Below are positions 417 to 26,400 of a stretch of 37,080 nt of DNA, piece after piece (position 1 is the first letter of the stretch; each line of letters opens with the position of its first letter). Origin of the DNA: a virus; IMG/VR virus record IMGVR_UViG_3300007541_000068, positions 1 through 37,080 of that record; one strand, written 5' to 3'. A program made the position numbers and the translations under genes. Below the pieces are notes generated by a model. It ran no database searches. It saw only the letters and a list, made by a program, of their open reading frames with translations, and was not told the origin of the DNA.

Positions 417-680
417 ATGAAAGTCGTCGTAAACGAAGTACAGAACGAAGGTATCGAAACGCTGTTGGGTCAGAATGTTACCTTTTGGTGTGGTGTCTAC
501 ATCTACACAGGAAAGCTGGTAGGTGTTAGTGACACCTGTGTTAAACTGGAGGATGCAAAGGTTGTCTATGAGACAGGTGCCTTCAGTATTAAGCAATGGG
601 GTGATGCTCAATCTTTGTCGGCGGCTTGGTATATCCAGACCGCGGCCATTGAATCCTTCGGTGTGATGCATAAGGAGTAG
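417..680 (+). CDS. Small conserved phage protein, possible Sm-like fold
   Basis: This encodes 87 residues, preceded by a good ribosome-binding site (GAAAGGAAG, about 6 bases before the ATG). There is no signal peptide or membrane segment. The pattern is an all-beta protein: an N-terminal helix-like stretch, then LLGQNVTFWCGVYIYTGKLV, VKLEDAKVVYETGAF and a final AWYIQTAAIESFGV strand. The G-x-x-V-T/V-x-x-G-x-L-x-G/V-V pattern and a later strand pair recall Sm/LSm-type small barrels. Similar small proteins occur in early regions of marine phages, where they are usually left unnamed. An RNA-binding (Hfq-like) role is only a fold-based guess. It stands alone between short gaps, upstream of the repeat gene. 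Confidence 0.65.
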   Translation: MKVVVNEVQNEGIETLLGQNVTFWCGVYIYTGKLVGVSDTCVKLEDAKVVYETGAFSIKQWGDAQSLSAAWYIQTAAIESFGVMHKE

Positions 681-703
681 CCCGCCGCACAGGAGTACGC
701 GCC

Positions 704-976
704 ATGAACACTAAACGTAAGACATACAAATCTAGATTTAGGTCTTGGTCGGGGTCTGGGTCTAGGTCTGGGTCTAAATCTGGGTCTAGGTCTGGGTCTG
801 GGTCTAGGTCTTGGTCGGGGTCTTGGTCTTGGTCTGGGTCTAGGTCTGGGTCTAGGTCTGGGTCTAGGTCTTGGTCTAGGCCTGGGTCGTGGCCTTGGTC
901 TAAGTCTGGTTCTGGGTCTAGGTCTTGGTCTAGGTCTGGGTCTGGGTCTTGGTCTGGGGAAAATAGGGACTGTTAA
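704..976 (+). CDS. Ser-dipeptide repeat protein (SR/SG/SW-rich)
   Basis: This encodes 90 residues. After a basic N-terminus (MNTKRKTYK) almost the whole protein is Ser alternating with Gly, Arg, Trp or, rarely, Lys or Pro, ending in a short non-repeat tail (ENRDC). It is encoded by a hexanucleotide repeat (TCTNGG). Two things argue that it is translated: a clean AGGAG at 691-695, 8 bases before the ATG, and an open frame through the array that stops just two bases before the thyX start. The composition is strongly basic, with regularly spaced Arg and Trp, and the chain should be disordered. It resembles eukaryotic RS domains only in composition. RNA or DNA binding, or condensate formation, is inference; no family is recognised. 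The minus-strand Pro-Arg reading frame across the same DNA is a shadow. Confidence 0.65.
   Translation: MNTKRKTYKSRFRSWSGSGSRSGSKSGSRSGSGSRSWSGSWSWSGSRSGSRSGSRSWSRPGSWPWSKSGSGSRSWSRSGSGSWSGENRDC
731..958 (+). repeat. Hexanucleotide tandem array (TCTNGG)n, G-rich on + strand
   Basis: About 38 degenerate hexamers (TCTGGG, TCTAGG, TCTTGG and a few variants) run without interruption. The strand bias is extreme: G and T on the plus strand, C and A on the minus. Many GG and GGG runs are separated by 3-base TCT spacers, so the plus strand could form two- or three-tier G-quadruplexes. The second codon of each pair varies (GGG/GGT, AGG, TGG), while the Ser codon is almost always TCT. This looks like slippage growth followed by point drift. 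Confidence 0.9.
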
Positions 977-977
977 C

Positions 978-1640
978 ATGCACGAAGAAGTAAAGCTGGT
1001 TGGCTACAGCCGCAGGATCGGCTCCCAACCTGATGAGACGCTTGGCGACCAGATCGCCTACTATGCCCGCGTGAGTAATCCGACATCGGCGGAAATGGGC
1101 AAAGGCAACGACAGGTTGATTAGCTATCTGATCCGGCACAAGCACTGGAGCCCGTTTGAGATGGTGTCAGCGACCTTGAAGATCACAAGCACGCGGGATA
1201 TCCTTCGGCAAATCTTGCGGCATTCGTCCTTTTCGTTCCAGGAATTTTCTCAGCGGTACAGCGCAACCGAGACGACCGGAGCCGTGCGAGAAACGCGGCT
1301 ACAGGACCGCACCAACCGGCAGAACAGCTTGCCCAACGCCGACCCGGAACTTGCTGACTGGTGGGTCGAGAAGCAGCGCGCGGTCATGGGCAGCACTTTC
1401 GAGCTTTATGACCAAGCGTTGAAGCGCGGCATCGCCAAAGAACAGGCGCGCGCCATCCTGCCAGAGGGCCTGACCCGCAGCACCATATTTATGTCCGGCT
1501 CAATCCGGTCATGGATACACTACTGCGAGTTGCGAACTGGACCAGAGACCCAGAAAGAGCATCGCGAGATCGCTGCTGCGTGCGCAGTCCAGCTCGCCCG
1601 AGTGTTCCCTCAGATCGTCGGAGTGCTCGAACATGACTGA
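978..1640 (+). CDS. thyX: FAD-dependent thymidylate synthase ThyX
   Basis: This encodes 220 residues, a normal length for ThyX. The enzyme makes dTMP from dUMP with methylene-tetrahydrofolate, using FAD and NADPH, in the cytoplasm. The ThyX signature is at residues 81-94 (RHSSFSFQEFSQRY), corresponding to the canonical RHRx7S: R81, H82 and S91 are present, but the third position is Ser83 instead of Arg. Upstream, the conserved segment KHWSPFEM is clear, and downstream RAILPEGLTRSTIFMSGSIR and LRTGPETQKEHREIA match the family's substrate-binding C-terminal half. The start has an AGGGA about 9 bases upstream, at the end of the repeat gene. It overlaps the next gene by 8 bases and forms a nucleotide-supply group with the dCMP deaminase at 2042. 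Confidence 0.95.
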   Translation: MHEEVKLVGYSRRIGSQPDETLGDQIAYYARVSNPTSAEMGKGNDRLISYLIRHKHWSPFEMVSATLKITSTRDILRQILRHSSFSFQEFSQRYSATETTGAVRETRLQDRTNRQNSLPNADPELADWWVEKQRAVMGSTFELYDQALKRGIAKEQARAILPEGLTRSTIFMSGSIRSWIHYCELRTGPETQKEHREIAAACAVQLARVFPQIVGVLEHD

Positions 1641-3232: not shown

Positions 3233-3606
3233 GTTGGGCGGACAATCCAGCCGAGGTCGGCCACTATCCCGATAACAACCCGAAAACGATTTACGGCGTC
3301 CAAAAGCCATCGCTTGGCCTGATCCCGCTTGCCGCCCTGGAAGCTGCTGCCGGCGCGCATCAGCTAGGGGCCGATAAATACGGCCCCTGGAACTGGCGGG
3401 AAAAGCAGGTGGCGGCGAGTGTCTATATCCACGCTATGCTTCGCCACATCAAAGCGTGGCAAGAGATCGAGGACCTTGACCCAGAGAGCGGTGTATCGCA
3501 TCTCGGCCACGTCATGGCCTGCTGCGGTATACTCCTCGACGCCCAGCGTCATGGTAACTTAATTGATGATCGGGTAGTGACGGACAATGGCACTGATAAC
3601 TCTTGA
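3229..3606 (+). CDS. dATP/dGTP diphosphohydrolase-like protein (DUF5664/MazZ-like)
   Basis: This encodes 125 residues. The core SLGLIPLAALEAAAGAHQLG, KYGPWNWREK, YIHAMLRHIKAWQ and DLDPESGVSHLGHVMACC matches the phage family annotated as dATP/dGTP diphosphohydrolase N-terminal domain (DUF5664), an all-helical MazG-like fold. The acidic and His residues (H in MLRH, then E and D in EIEDLDPESG, H in SHLGH) would bind metal. Members linked to aminoadenine phages (MazZ) convert dGTP to dGMP for 2-aminoadenine synthesis, but many relatives occur in ordinary phages, so substrate and purpose are uncertain. It begins inside the VRR-NUC stop (ATGA) and overlaps the polymerase start by 20 bases, which suggests that the two are made together. 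Confidence 0.8.
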   Translation: MSWADNPAEVGHYPDNNPKTIYGVQKPSLGLIPLAALEAAAGAHQLGADKYGPWNWREKQVAASVYIHAMLRHIKAWQEIEDLDPESGVSHLGHVMACCGILLDAQRHGNLIDDRVVTDNGTDNS

Positions 3607-5425
3607 CTTTGAAACGTATTACAGCCGTCGATACTCGTTAACCAAGTATACTACAGAGGAGTATATACGAGACTACAGGTTCGAGGTCATTGGTGTCAGC
3701 GTTAAGGTCAACGATGACCCGGTTCGCTGGTTTAGCGGTACCCACGAACAGATCGCCACGTTCTTCAGGCAGTTCCCCTGGGCTTCGTCCGGCGTACTGG
3801 CGCATAACGCTATGTTCGATGGGGCCATATTGAGTTGGGTATTTGGCATTAGACCGAAAGCACTATTCGATACGATGTGTATGGGTCGCGCCATCCACGG
3901 TGTTGAAACCAGTGCCAGCCTAAAGGCTCTGGCCGAACGCCATGGACTAGGTGTCAAGGGCGACGCTGTGCTGCGAGCCCTGGGCAAGCACCGGGACGAG
4001 TTTACCCCCGAGGAGTTGGCGGAATACGGCGAGTACTGCAAGAACGACGTAACGCTGACCTACAAGTTATTCCAGGACATGGTGTGGAAGTACCAATTCC
4101 CAGACGAGGAGTTGAAGCTGATCGACCTGACGTTGCGGATGTTCACGGAGCCAGTGCTAGAACTAGACCTAGGCCTGCTGCAAGAACACTTAAACACGTT
4201 ACAGCAGCAAAAGACGCAGTTGTTAGAGCAAGGAGGCGTCACCCGTGAGGACCTGTTGAGTAATCCTAAATTTGCGGATGTACTTCGTAACTTAGGTGTG
4301 GAGCCTCCCACTAAAACAAGTCCACGGACTGGTAAGACGACGTATGCGTTTGCGAAAACCGATGAGGCCATGCGCGCTTTGCTGGAGCACGACTACCCTC
4401 AAGTGCAAACGGTAGTGGCGGCGAGGCTGGGCGTCAAAAGTACGTTGGAGGAGACTAGAACACAGCGGTTCTTGGAGATTGCCTCCCGCGGTCTGCTACC
4501 GGGGCCGATCCGTTATTACGCTGCGCACACAGGCCGGTGGGGCGGTGCGGACAAAATCAATCTACAGAACCTGCCGAGTCGTGGCGATAATGCTGGGGTG
4601 CTAAAACGATCTATTGTAGCGCCCCCTGGCCACCTGCTAGTGGAGTCCGACTCGTCACAGATCGAGGCCCGCGTGCTGGCATGGTTGGCTGAAGAGGAAG
4701 AGCTGGTACACGCGTTCACCGTAGGTGATGACGTGTACAAACAGATGGCCGGGTCGATCTACGGCAAAGATCCAGCGGAAGTCAGTGGGTCCGAACGGTT
4801 CGTAGGTAAGACAACTATCCTGGGTGCCGGCTACGGCATGGGGTACGTTAAATTTTTGGCTCAGTTAAAGAACTTTGGTGTGGACGACATTGACGAGCAT
4901 GAAGCACGACGTATCATTCAGGTATACAGGTCTACATATAGTGAGATCGCTCAGCTATGGGCCAACGCGAACCACTCTGTACGTTCGATGGTGAACGATG
5001 CGCCAGTGCAGTTCGGCAGGGCCGGGGTGCTCCGCGTACGGGCAGCGGACAACGCAATAGAGCTACCCAACGGACTGTCCCTACGCTACTCAAACCTACG
5101 GACACAAGGTGATTGTGATAACCGGCCCGAGCTAGTCTACGACACGCGCCTTGGTCCCACCCGGCTGTACGGTGGGAAAGTTATCGAGAACGTGTGTCAG
5201 GCATTGGCGCGGTGCATCATCGGTTGGCAGATGCAGCAGATCGCGAAGAAATATAGAGTCGTGCTAACTGTACACGACTCAGTAGTATGCTGCGTACCCG
5301 AAGATGAGATCGCCCAAGCCAAGGATTATGTAGAGCGGTGTATGCGATTAGTTCCTTTATGGGCGACCGGTTTACCTGTAAACTGTGAGGCTAAAACCGG
5401 TAAGTCATACGGAGATTGTAAATGA
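3587..5425 (+). CDS. Family A DNA polymerase with 3'-5' exonuclease
   Basis: This replicative polymerase of 612 residues has two domains. The N-terminal DnaQ-like proofreading exonuclease has Exo I D7-x-E9, Exo II HNAMFD (N74, D78) and Exo III YCKND (Y150, D154), all complete. The polymerase domain has motif A DSSQIEAR (D355, E360) after HTGRWGG, motif B RFVGKTTILGAGYG (R404, K408, Y416) and motif C VHDSVV (H563, D564, S565). Two deviations stand out. The residue equivalent to Pol I Phe762 is Leu412, and the Glu of the usual HDE motif is Ser565. There is no 5'-nuclease domain and no DnaJ-like zinc insert. It overlaps both neighbours (20 bases upstream, ATGA downstream), at the centre of a nuclease/polymerase operon. 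Confidence 0.97.
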   Translation: MALITLDFETYYSRRYSLTKYTTEEYIRDYRFEVIGVSVKVNDDPVRWFSGTHEQIATFFRQFPWASSGVLAHNAMFDGAILSWVFGIRPKALFDTMCMGRAIHGVETSASLKALAERHGLGVKGDAVLRALGKHRDEFTPEELAEYGEYCKNDVTLTYKLFQDMVWKYQFPDEELKLIDLTLRMFTEPVLELDLGLLQEHLNTLQQQKTQLLEQGGVTREDLLSNPKFADVLRNLGVEPPTKTSPRTGKTTYAFAKTDEAMRALLEHDYPQVQTVVAARLGVKSTLEETRTQRFLEIASRGLLPGPIRYYAAHTGRWGGADKINLQNLPSRGDNAGVLKRSIVAPPGHLLVESDSSQIEARVLAWLAEEEELVHAFTVGDDVYKQMAGSIYGKDPAEVSGSERFVGKTTILGAGYGMGYVKFLAQLKNFGVDDIDEHEARRIIQVYRSTYSEIAQLWANANHSVRSMVNDAPVQFGRAGVLRVRAADNAIELPNGLSLRYSNLRTQGDCDNRPELVYDTRLGPTRLYGGKVIENVCQALARCIIGWQMQQIAKKYRVVLTVHDSVVCCVPEDEIAQAKDYVERCMRLVPLWATGLPVNCEAKTGKSYGDCK

Positions 5426-15700: not shown

Positions 15701-18700
15701 CCCATACCGCCCATGACCCCTGCAACAGTAGAACGGTTTCCGTCTATCGGAGTTGCAGGCATAGCGTACGGGTCGATACCCGGCACAGGGGACGCTGGGA
15801 ACAACACGGCATCAAGCAATTGGTCCGCACGGCGTAACATATCCGCACCGCGTGGGGGTGGAGCTATCCCAAGCAGGAGTTTTTTTACCAGATCAAAGAA
15901 GCGGGTTAGGACGCCAGGGTTGTGTGCTTGCAAGTGCTGCCGGAAGCTAGCATTACCCATAACTTCCGAGGCAAACTCGAATACGTCTCCCAGCGCGTTA
16001 ATGTCACCGAAGCTACGTTTTAGGTCGCCCTTTGCATCGTTGAACAATTTAATCAGCGCCTTAGCTGCAGGAGTGCTACCTCCGTTAGCCAGTGCTCGCA
16101 CGGTGGCCGCATGGGCCATCTCATGGAGTAATACAAACGGGTTTATACCCCGCTCGGCCTCCAAGTATATCGTGTTCGTTGCCGGGGTATAGATCCCCAC
16201 TACCTGCCTACCATTCAAGAATAACGTGGGCTCCACGAAGACGTCTACAGACCCCACATACTCTGCTAGCTTGGTCGCTAGATTTCTTACAAACGGGTCT
16301 GGGTGAAACCGGGCTAGGATCTCCACCGCACCGCGCAGGTTGTTGTTCTCTACAGCGTGTTTGAAACCTTTGGGTACGATAAACATGCTCGTAGGAAGCA
16401 TACTATCTGCGCCGGGGTAAGCGCGGCCTACGAAATCCCCAGTCCGCGCCATATCCTTGGCGTGCCTCTGAAGGTCCCTAAATACGCGCAGATCAGACGA
16501 GCTTAATAGGCTTACTAGTCGTTTAACCACTTCATCAAGAAGCGTTGCATCTGCAGGGTTCTTAGGTACCGCCACATCAGTAGCAACCTGCGCTAGTGTG
16601 TTTTTTAAGTCGCCGTTGGTAATGGGTTTTATGGACGCTAGATACGTGTTCGCATCATCAGAGAGGTCCTTACTCTTGCCTTCGATGACGTCGTTTAATT
16701 CTCTATTTTCTGTTTCCGCAGATAGTTCTGCCTTGGAACTCAGGGCAGTGGGGACCTTGACTAGCAGTTTAGGCAGCTGTCTCCTCGACCGCTCAAGTTT
16801 CCTTATGTCGGGCGTACTAGGTTCAGGTTTGGGGGCTGCTCCCTTGGGGGCTGTTCCCTTGGGGGCTGTTCCCTTGGGGGCTGTTCCCTTGGGGGCTGTT
16901 CCCTTGGGGGCTGATTTAGTGGCTACTGGAGGCTGCTTTGCCTTTTCTCCATCTGAAGATCGTCCAGGAACTCCTTTACCGCGTCCCACTCTTCTGGGTG
17001 TAGTCTCTCCAGCTCCGGGGGTATTGGCAGGTTGTGGTGAAGTACCAGTAGCGCCAGTTCCATCTCCTCCTGATCTAGGTGAAGGTCGCTTTCGTGCCTC
17101 AGGCTTGCTACCTGTTTTACCAGCACCCGGAGCAGACGATTGGTCTCGTTCTGTGCTTCCAAAATCTTGGCCTGTAGAAGCAGCGGAAGGCTCTCCTTCA
17201 GTTCCCGCATTAGGCGTACCTTTCTCTAGATCTAGTTTAAGCTGTTCGGGTTCCGCAACCGCTGCCTCTGAGTCGCGCCTATTTCGTCTCGCATACATAC
17301 TCTTAGCGGCGCGGTCTAAGGAGTCGCGCGTTATGCCTACTTCCCGCAGGACATCAGCTACAGATGCCTTGCGACTCTTAGCTATGCTAGTTAGCGCCTT
17401 ATCGACAGCCGCTTCCGGGAACAACTTACCTTTAGTGATGCTTGTTTCGATATTATCTAGGATTCCGGACAGTACCGTAGCCGTTGGTGCAGGCGGTCCA
17501 GCCGTACCCAGTGATTCTAAGTCCGGGAATAGCTCATACGTCTCATCGGTACCCGCAGTCCTCCGCTGCTTTTGCAGCGCGGCGTACTCTGCCTCCCCTA
17601 CAACGCTTTTTTCCGGCGTCGGCTTTTGGGGTCTCGGAGATAAACGTAGCTGCCTAGGGTCCGGTGTCGTTGCCTCTTGGGCGAGTTGCGCCTCATCTGG
17701 TCTTGGGGTTGCGCCGAGAAGACCGCTACCTTTTTTACCAACGGCGAGTAGCCTCCTAGCAGCATCGTTTAAGTATCCGTAAGTTACGCCTGCATCCCGC
17801 ATAACAGCAGCTGTGGATGTCTTACGGCTTCTAGCCATGCTAGTTAGCGCCCTATCAATAGCATCTTTTGGCGCTAATTTATTTCTAGTAAGACCCGTGT
17901 TAATTTTCTCCATGATCCCGGATAGTACCGTAGCTGCTGGTGTAGGCGGTCCAGCCGTACCCAGTGATTCTAAGTCCGGGAACAGCTCATACGTCTCACT
18001 AGTACCCGCAGTCTTCCGCTGCTTTTGCAGTGCGGCGTACTCTGCCTCCCTCGCAGCGCGTTCGTCCAGTGCCGTTACTTCCGGGAGCACAAGCTGTTCT
18101 GGTTCCGTAACCGCTGCCTTCGGTTCCGTAGCCACTGCCTCTGGTGTCGGAGCTTTTGGCGCAGTGCCCAGTGATTCTAGGTCTGGGAACAGCTCATACG
18201 TCTCACCAGGGCGCGCAGTCCTCCGTTGCCTTTGCAGCGCGGCGTAGTCCGCCTCTCTCGCAGCGCGTTCCTCCGCAGCGCGTTTCTCTTGCGCTAAGAG
18301 TTCCGGGAATACAGGCTGCTCAGAGCCTGGGATCGCCGCCTCTCGGGCGCGTTGTCCCTCTACTTCCTCCGGGGTGATCTCGCCGTCCCTAGGTACAAAC
18401 AATCCGCCCCGTTCCGGAGCTGCGCCGACGAAACTCCTACCCTCCCCATCACCTTTGTATAGTTTCCTAGCAGCGGTATCTAAGTAGTCGCGAGATACGC
18501 CCACTTCCTGCAGGATAGCGTCTATAGATGTTTTACGTTCCTTGGCTACATCAGTAAGAACTTTATCGACAGCCGCTTCTGGGAACGCCCCAGCTTTGGT
18601 AACTTCCGATTCAACTCTATTTATGATCCTGGACAGTGCCGTAGCCGTTGGCGCAGGCGGTCCCTCCGCACCCAATGCTTTTAAGTCCGGGAATAGCTCA

Positions 18701-23439: not shown

Positions 23440-26400
23440 CACGTATCTCCCAGGATGCGCAGCAATCTATCAGTATCACTATCGATTTGTCCACCGGATA
23501 CATAACCCCCACTAGCTCCAAACAAACCCCTAGCGGATGGATTGATTGTCTGCGCCTGTGGTTGCGGTCTTGGTGTCCCGTATACCAAATCTCTGAGGCC
23601 GCCACCCGCCCCTGAATAAGGAGAAGGGAACAAGCGTTCTTGTTGCGGAGTAGCAAAGATACTACTCCAGTCATACACATAGTTCAGATTTACCGGGGAC
23701 GGTGCCTGCGCCGCTGCGCCGCTAGTCCCTACAGCCCCACCACCCGTTGGTTGGGTTAGCAAGGTTGTAAGCAGTTGCTGTTGAGCGAGCTTGTTCTGCT
23801 GCGCTAGTTGCGCCGCTGCAATCTGCTGCTGTTGGAGCGCCAGCTCGTTAAATAACCCATATATACCGGTACCAGCGAAGCGGGACGGGTCAGGGATATC
23901 GAAAGCAAGCCCCGTTTGCATACTTGTGAGAGTATCGAGGTCTGTCTGGTCTACGACACCGTCAGCGTTGGTATCGTAATCTAGTACCTGTTGCTCATTT
24001 GCAACAGCGTTGCCCGCAATAACGTCTACAACGAAGTCAATATCAGTTTGGGTTACTTGGGCTGCGGGCTTCCCGATATAGTCCGCAATAAGCTGTACCT
24101 GATCGGATAGGTCGGTAACCTGCCCACCGACATCAGAAATCTGACTGGCAAGCGCGTCCCTAGTAGTCCCCAGCTCCGCAAGTAAGGTCTCTTCAGTGGT
24201 ACCTAGAGTAGCGGCAAGGTCTGCAATTGCTGCATTAGTAGCAGCATCGGCAGTAGCACCAGCGGCACGGTATTGTTCGATAAGATCAGTAAGGGCGGTA
24301 AGTTGGCTCCCAACACCCGTAAGACCCTCACTTATATCACTAGCGAGGTCCGTTCTTAAGGTGTTAACGATATCTTGCGCACCCTCTAGGAGGGTTTGAC
24401 CCTCGGGGATACCTAATAGCGTACGAACCGCATCGGTATTTAAGCTCTCAGGGAGCGTTATATTAGAAACTATATCCGCAGCCAGCGTGTTCCTCATATA
24501 GCTGACTAGATTGGTATCATCGTCTATGCCGAGTAAAGTCTGTACAGCTCCGCTTATATCCAGATCAGTCAACACGCTGGTCAGGGCGGTTTCTAAATCT
24601 GCAGTAGTGAGTACCGTAGGCAACTTCGCAGCAATACCGTCAACAATATCGGTGCGCAGTGTGGCTAGATATCCGCTAAGTACGGTGGTTAGATCCTCGT
24701 CTTCCGCAATCCCGAGAAGCCCCCGCGCTGCCGTAGCGTCTATACCCGCTAAAGTACCGGCATCCTCTATGGCAGTAGTTACTGCGGCAGCTATGTCGCC
24801 AGTTGTCCACGAACTGAAATCAGCGGGGAGGTAGCCCGCAACAGACTCCAAGAAGTTATCTTTAATAGTGGTAACCGTATCAGTGAGATATGTGGCTATA
24901 TCCTGTGGTTCACCATTTTCGTCGTTAGGGATATTAAGTATGTTACGCACATCTTCGGAAGTCAGGAAAGACCCTACACCCAACGTATCCAGCGTGTCGG
25001 CTATAGCTGTCCGTACAGCATCAATTGTAAGGTTATTAGATGCAGCGTCATCAGTCGGGTCTACCGTATCCCCTACCGTATTAATGGCTGTCCCGACACT
25101 ATTTAACAGCTCTAGGCTCAGTTGGGATTGGAAGTAGTCAAACAGGTTTTCATCGGTATCCTCCGCGATGCCCAACGTGCTATACACCACGCTAGCGTCT
25201 GCACCTGTATCTGCAGCATATTGTGCTACGGCGGCGCGCAGGGCACTAGCGATATCAGCGCTACCAGGAGCAACAGCGCTAAGATTATCTAGGACGCCGG
25301 TACGGGTATCCTCCGTAGTAATACGCCCCATAATAGACGATACGTAACCATCCAGAGCATTGCCTAGAGATGCACGCTCTTCATCCGTGATGGATGCCCC
25401 CTGGGAGTCCAGAGCGTAAAGCACATCTACGATCTCAGCTCGTTCGGCAGCGGTCAGCCGATCTACTGGAAGATCGCTGTACCCCAGGGTGTCATTGATA
25501 AGGGATCCCAAATTATCATCAATGGCTTGCCGTACAGCTGTCTCATCTACCGTCGTCTCATCTACCGTCGTCTCATCTACCGTCGTCTCATCTACCGGCG
25601 TCTCATCTACCGGCGTCTCATCTACCGGCGTCTCATCTACCGGCGTCTCATCTACCGGCGTCTCATCTACCGGCGTCTCATCTACCGGCGTTTCTGGCAG
25701 TGGGTGGTTCTCTGCATAGGTCACCACCACGTCCGCAACTAGTGCAGGGGGCTGTCCAACTAAACTATCTATGAGGCCCGGATCAGTCTCCGCAACGTCA
25801 TTTGCGCTATACCCAGCCTCTGCAAATGCATATATCGCTTCAGAGGTAGAAGTTAGGTTTGGATCAGCGGTGTAGATAGTGCTTAACACCGCAGCCGTAA
25901 GCGCTGCTCCAGTAAGGCCAGCGCCGGATAATACCTCCGTGATAGTAGTCTCATCCGGTGTACCGGAATCAACAGCACTGGAATACATATCGTGTACGTC
26001 GGGATTGGTCCGTATAAGGGCATCGACGATAGCATTACCCGTAGACTTCAGTATTTTACCTGAAGCACTAATACCGATTGCGCTCCCCGATATAGATCCA
26101 CCTACAACAGCCCCCAAGAATGTGGCGCCAGCTACGTTACTAGCCACGTCTATGCTTGGATCAATCAGAGATAAAGTACCAGAAAGATATGCTTCCGTAA
26201 TACCTTCTTCGACGCCTTCGGTGGCAGCTCCGAGCGCTACAGAAGTAATATAGTTGCCGACCGTGCCGCTGACAGACTTATCCCCAAACACGGCCTTTCC
26301 TAAGGCTAGACCACCGACCCCCATTGAGGCTAGCGTTGCATACGCACTGACTAAGCCAGTGTTACGCGCTACGTCTAACGCATACGCGTGGACCTCGTCG

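Follow-up and report, generated by a model that had tools for sequence, protein, structure and literature searches.

Borg-encoded Sm ribonucleoproteins carry N-terminal amino-acid tandem repeats; in these archaeal elements Sm protein and repeat are fused in one polypeptide, with repeat units of 4-12 or more residues (PMC9879509). Pfam DUF6948 (PF22253) is a family of phage proteins without an assigned function. Low-complexity sequences of a related kind are also familiar from eukaryotes, where SR/RS-domain and FUS-type proteins alternate Ser with Arg, or Gly, Ser and Tyr, and carry aromatic or Arg stickers.

We analysed a 37,080-base IMG/VR virus record (hereafter the window) in which a gene for an alternating Ser-X protein lies between a gene for a predicted Sm-fold protein and thyX (Table 1). 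The likeness to the Borg case is that an extrachromosomal element couples an Sm-fold protein to a tandem repeat that is disordered, in frame and evolving fast. Unlike the Borg genes, those described here are on phage contigs, the repeat is a gene of its own, and it alternates strictly by two residues; repeat-Sm fusions of the Borg aaTR-Sm type were not found, the two being separate ORFs in all loci examined. Judged from database searches and open-access literature, the Borg Sm protein with its fused repeat (PMC9879509) is the nearest described case. In that literature no paper emerged that deals with a Sm-like/Ser-X pair, with Sm/Hfq-like proteins encoded by phages or with DUF6948; a description that is not indexed is possible, and the two-gene module is apparently undescribed.

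Table 1. Features of the module and its downstream neighbour in the window
Feature	Position	Strand	Basis and remarks
Sm/LSm-fold protein (predicted), 87 aa, upstream partner in the module, net charge -4	417-680	+	ORF, AF2, structure search, alignment
AGGAG ribosome-binding site of the repeat gene	691-695	+	Sequence read; 8 nt 5' of the ATG at 704
Ser-X dipeptide-repeat protein, 90 aa	704-976	+	ATG to TAA ORF; predicted disordered
Hexanucleotide array, in-frame consensus TCTNGG	741-958	+	TRF and codon list
thyX, flavin-dependent thymidylate synthase, neighbour outside the module	978-1640	+	Pfam Thy1 PF02511, E 6.6e-40

The Ser-X protein consists of a basic leader, MNTKRKTYKSRFR, followed by (Ser-[Gly/Arg/Trp])n and a short tail, GENRDC. 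About 36 hexamer units of the ORF are read as Ser-X, and TRF describes the array with a period of 6, 36.3 copies, 77% matches and a score of 233, the second highest among the window's arrays. The Ser register contains TCT 31 times and TCG twice, with one Phe and two Pro as exceptions; the X register contains GGG (14), AGG (9) and TGG (7), plus AAA, AAG and GGT, the two Lys being the exceptions there. Two further coding arrays in the window, at 25540-25691 and 16829-16913, have 15-bp units and sit in giant proteins of 2448 and 2345 aa (PVDET and APKGT repeats). The sequence-only reading had described the gene as a TCTNGG array in a clean reading frame with its own AGGAG ribosome-binding site, placed just before thyX among early genes, and each of these points is borne out by ORF calling and TRF, by the position of the site, and by the Pfam match of thyX together with its early-type neighbours.

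No Pfam domain above the cut-off was found in the 90-aa protein, and searches of Pfam, PHROGs, NCBIfam and PDB sequences yielded nothing useful. NCBIfam matches of the SdrC/ClfA type were rejected as low-complexity SD-repeat similarity far below the cut-off. A scan for promoters and terminators gave matches at chance level, with no excess. AlphaFold predicted no fold for the Ser-X protein (pLDDT 47.6, pTM 0.11), which, from a shallow alignment of low-complexity sequences, is weak evidence; this lack of a predicted fold fits the earlier idea of a disordered protein that may be condensate-like or bind nucleic acid. Its half-Ser composition, Gly spacers and Trp/Arg stickers would likewise suit a multivalent disordered scaffold. 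Unlike SR and FUS proteins, it is leader and repeat throughout, with no RRM or other domain; the RRM plus RS domain of an SR protein was not found by Pfam, and we do not claim homology.

The sequence-only reading overlooked the key partner of the repeat gene, the small gene immediately upstream, for whose product we found no Pfam family or PDB sequence match. A scan of viral contigs for relatives of this protein gave 74 loci, and an alignment of 53 members of the family (A1) revealed an invariant YIYTGKLVG core. From this alignment AlphaFold2 predicted a barrel of short strands (pLDDT 92.6), the model having the short helix and five-stranded barrel of the Sm fold. All 50 of the 50 PDB matches listed by VIA-align were Sm/LSm proteins (Z 9.7-10.6), as were the top Foldseek matches; the top matches of both were to spliceosomal and archaeal Sm/LSm proteins over 65-70 residues. 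The likeness to the Sm/LSm/Hfq superfamily extends to size, strand order and a Y-x-G-x-L-V strand, but it is a likeness of predicted fold, as the family has no sequence match to Pfam LSM or PDB chains. None of the 53 members reached LSM among the Pfam LSM-type models, the best result being one weak LSM14 match (E 0.13). When Sm1 and Sm2 were read by eye in the alignment, the Y-x-G-x-L-V strand was invariant, Asn or Ser occupied the position of the usual Asp, and the Sm2 Arg-Gly was absent; the canonical Sm RNA-contact residues were not clearly recognisable. We speak of a predicted Sm-like fold. In bacterial genomes (84,980 species) a search for the Sm-like gene gave a single match, a Patescibacteria MAG contig that also has a Ser-X ORF. 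This MAG-binned contig (L309) may be a phage contig.

Linkage of the two genes was assessed in 58 loci picked by the upstream protein and not by the repeat; the window and two finds made later are among them. A Ser-X ORF lay directly downstream of the Sm-like gene on the same strand in 56 of the 58, the window among them. The Ser-X start codon overlapped the Sm-like stop codon in 25 loci, and the gap was at most 30 bases in 20 more. Of the two remaining loci, one (L287) has its Ser-X ORF upstream of the Sm-like gene, and in the other (L277) the contig end leaves only 88 bases, which already read as repeat. The same leader type and repeat were found beside Sm-like relatives, and many phages carry several tandem Ser-X ORFs with a common leader, up to a maximum of 15 distinct arrays at a single locus. 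In clusters of this kind (L085, L098, L138, L141 and L197) each ORF has its own start and the shared leader. Ser-X genes are thus widespread across environmental phages, and the earlier view of the gene as an oddity of one phage did not hold.

The converse approach, a DNA scan for six TCTNGG units, gave 120 loci. Arrays were called mixed if they contained at least three kinds of N, and 59 of the 84 mixed arrays had a Sm-like gene no more than 3 kb away on the same strand; many of the others were truncated by locus ends or were second clusters. Several contigs (L259, L276, L277, L280, L302, L559, L571, L574 and others) end inside or just before an array, a pattern that suggests breaks in assembly at these sites and an under-count of the module. 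In L306 a second repeat ORF, in an Ala-Met/Leu frame, occupies 3456-3971 just upstream of the Sm-like gene; this phage also has an AGC-type Ser-X array, and another frame of 3456-3971 may be the coding one.

The genes around the module are of early type. In the window they include thyX, an HTH protein, dCMP deaminase, a GcrA-like protein, a dGTP/dATP diphosphohydrolase-domain protein, DNA polymerase A, a PD-(D/E)XK nuclease and an SNF2-type helicase, and in other phages the module adjoins RecT, ERF, RtcB or pterin-synthase and radical-SAM genes. Modification enzymes and exporters, as expected near a RiPP precursor, were not seen among the window's ten flanking genes, which are regulators and DNA/nucleotide enzymes. 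Elsewhere the neighbours were varied early genes, and the sole radical SAM gene adjoins a pterin-synthase-like gene, an arrangement that we take to be that of queuosine pathways. As controls we took 111 viral loci (1.13 Mb) whose thyX or DNA polymerase is related to that of the window. Neither the Sm-like gene nor a Ser-X ORF occurred in any of them (0/111), indicating that such an ORF is far from a chance feature and that the module moves independently of these neighbours.

This setting bears on the idea that the repeat protein is a virion or extracellular glue, that is, a structural or adhesive protein assembling on the small barrel protein. Alternating small and large residues could pack as beta strands, and Gly-Tyr-Ser repeats resemble silk- and FUS-like sequences. 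However, the module sits among thyX, dCMP deaminase, DNA polymerase, RecT and ERF genes rather than tail or capsid genes, and we consider such a role very unlikely.

We surveyed codon usage in 244 arrays from 135 loci. The Ser codon was TCT in 204 arrays, TCG in 14, TCA in 5, AGC in 5, AGT in 1 and mixed in 15, whereas the X codon was nearly always NGG, encoding Gly, Trp or Arg. A tree of the Sm-like protein, which has few columns and many weak forks, requires a minimum of 16 switches in Ser codon class. The Gly:Trp:Arg mix, ~0.33:0.28:0.28, was the same within error across all Ser codon classes. Arg was encoded by AGG in 87 loci and by CGG in 21, and 94 of the 108 loci used one Arg codon at ≥90%, compared with 16% expected if codons were drawn independently. 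The Ser codon has thus been swapped between phages while the residue was kept, which points to protein-level selection. As read from these sequences, selection acts on the protein, and the evidence for it comes from the comparison between phages.

Viral contigs were then searched blind for AGYNGG arrays; these encode the same peptide and have little DNA in common with TCTNGG. A Sm-like gene was near 18 of the 25 mixed AGYNGG arrays, as against none of the 95 unmixed ones. The Thr/Ala control pattern RCTNGG gave seven mixed arrays; a Sm-like gene accompanies a single one, which is Thr-X (L549). RCTNGG arrays also gave Ala-[Gly/Arg/Trp] readings in L506, L507 and L540. Those of L506 and L507 come from reading Gly-X genes beside DUF6948 in the wrong frame, and L540 has, in addition and separately, a SAARSAAW repeat within a longer protein. 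A different coding frame, either Leu-Gly (+2) or antisense Pro-Arg, would make the variable base synonymous; we rejected it because the leader, the start/stop overlap and the stop codon all match the Ser-X frame, and because the alternative frames change with codon class (to Pro-stop for TCA arrays).

These comparisons also address the possibility that the array acts as RNA or DNA, its GG-every-six word being a multivalent binding site or an mRNA G-quadruplex and the peptide a by-product. The Sm-like ring could, for example, bind the array and autoregulate its own mRNA, much as TRAP binds spaced triplets. GG does recur every 6 nt in all codon classes; in TCT arrays variation is lower at the third-position G of the X codon (207) than at its second position (616), and the third position of Ser is held as well. 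Yet everything else in the word is replaced (UCUNGG, UCGNGG, UCANGG, AGCNGG) while the YIYTGKLVG core of the partner stays constant, and Arg is retained through either AGG or CGG. Only the Ser-X frame accommodates start, leader and stop; the alternatives read Leu-Gly, Arg-Gly, Ala-Gly or antisense Pro-stop. The repeats beside DUF6948, which alternate GGN with Tyr, Ser or Asp codons, are a different RNA, and an Rfam search gave no match. We regard a nucleic-acid element, including its autoregulatory form, as quite unlikely.

Within arrays the pattern was different. One-step departures from TCT in TCT arrays numbered 155 at the first codon position, 157 at the second and 90 at the third, or 312 nonsynonymous and 90 synonymous changes, where ~2:1 is expected without selection. 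The constancy of TCT had been read as a hint of selection for Ser spacing. That argument fails, since the silent position varies less than either of the others; Ser is no better protected than the silent position and shows no signature of purifying selection inside these arrays. Constant TCT is therefore held by tandem copying and not by selection for Ser, and tandem copying best explains the uniform Ser codon within a phage. In contig pairs with identical upstream flanks, array lengths differed by 48, 6 and 48 bp, all in frame, although repeat lengths from short-read assemblies can be wrong and such errors may contribute to the differences. The array had been suggested to vary in length, as these sibling contigs bear out, and a comparison of length and frame in relatives had been proposed as a check: all differences are multiples of 6. 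Frame-breaking indels would be a weak refuter of coding, because 6-bp slippage never shifts the frame.

The absence of purifying selection on Ser within arrays and the 6-bp steps between sibling contigs are what would be expected of a selfish or neutral microsatellite, a functionless product of hexamer slippage whose frame is open only because it changes 6 bp at a time. Such an element is highly improbable here, given the near-universal linkage to one small gene, the same palette encoded by unrelated codons, the conserved leaders and start/stop overlap, and the absence from the control loci. We conclude that the product of the Ser-X gene is very likely translated, with a Ser-X palette that is fixed and a length that varies naturally.

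A parallel system emerged from more distant relatives. Further Sm-like relatives form a second group, called group B (IRTVTM...ADSGRF), which is also accompanied by Ser-X ORFs; in the environmental record MW202573 the pair is annotated as two hypothetical proteins. Profile comparison matched A1 to group B (E 1.9e-10) and group B to DUF6948 (E 2.2e-7), with no match in the direct comparison of A1 and DUF6948; DUF6948 models were among the viral fold matches of the A1 model. DUF6948 thus appears to be a distant relative of A1, linked through group B. As in A1, a dipeptide-repeat ORF follows, although DUF6948 is its own sequence family and its partner repeats are acidic Gly-[Ser/Tyr/Asp]. Such an ORF follows the DUF6948 gene in 76 of 80 loci, cultured phages included (loci L556-L635; L551-L554), as scored by a looser Ser/Gly dipeptide detector that was positive in 3 of 1132 control windows. 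Within any one phage the Gly codon is uniform, and it varies from phage to phage, the pattern seen for Ser. Cultured examples are Pectobacterium phage Sabo, with overlapping CDS0034 and CDS0035, and Iodobacter phage phiPLPE, with gp84 and an unannotated overlapping ORF. Gene25 of CV-1-33, beside DUF6948, may be annotated in the wrong frame (Ala-Met).

The two systems have opposite charges within each pair and reversed signs between them, with exceptions that the means hide. Mean net charge was -3.2 for A1 Sm-like proteins (1 of 53 positive) and +6.4 for Ser-X repeats (6 of 244 negative); it was +1.5 for DUF6948 (32 of 51 proteins positive, 13 negative) and -7.1 for Gly-X repeats (0 of 44 positive). 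This opposition suggests direct binding of barrel and repeat.

A basic, Trp/Arg-rich peptide beside a partner of opposite charge could instead be a host-directed antimicrobial or takeover factor that binds nucleic acid or membranes, with the acidic Sm-like protein as its chaperone or antidote. Its composition, the early-gene neighbourhood and the several copies in some contigs (up to 15 distinct arrays per locus) are compatible with this role. The acidic Gly-[Ser/Tyr/Asp] repeats of the parallel DUF6948 system, however, have no cationic character, and no signal peptide was apparent by eye in the Ser-X sequence; we consider the proposal unlikely.

We favor, with chances slightly short of even, the reading that the Ser-X protein is the second gene product of a conserved phage module in which an acidic Sm-like barrel and a disordered basic polymer form a multivalent complex. 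The barrel would bind the polymer through opposite charge and Trp/Arg stickers; early in infection the complex would probably work on nucleic acid as a condensate or RNP-like assembly. Arrays would grow and shrink by tandem duplication, which would homogenise the Ser codon within a phage, while selection on the polymer would maintain the residue mix.

The module pairs a predicted fold of RNA-binding type with a minimal natural polymer of stickers and spacers. The code of this polymer is directly legible: a single spacer residue and three partner residues, reached convergently from at least five Ser codons. It offers a clean natural experiment, in a fast-evolving system, on selection for low-complexity sequence. 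It also provides a candidate function for DUF6948 and for hundreds of small phage ORFs overlooked or misframed in gene calling. Because the cultured phages phiPLPE and Sabo carry the DUF6948 version, the idea is testable now. More broadly, and more tentatively, phages may carry a general class of two-gene assemblies, each a small Sm-like barrel with a separate dipeptide polymer of opposite charge and rapid evolution, Ser-[Gly/Arg/Trp] or Gly-[Ser/Tyr/Asp], that would form, during infection, a programmable condensate or RNP compartment, retuned by repeat turnover without breaking the frame.
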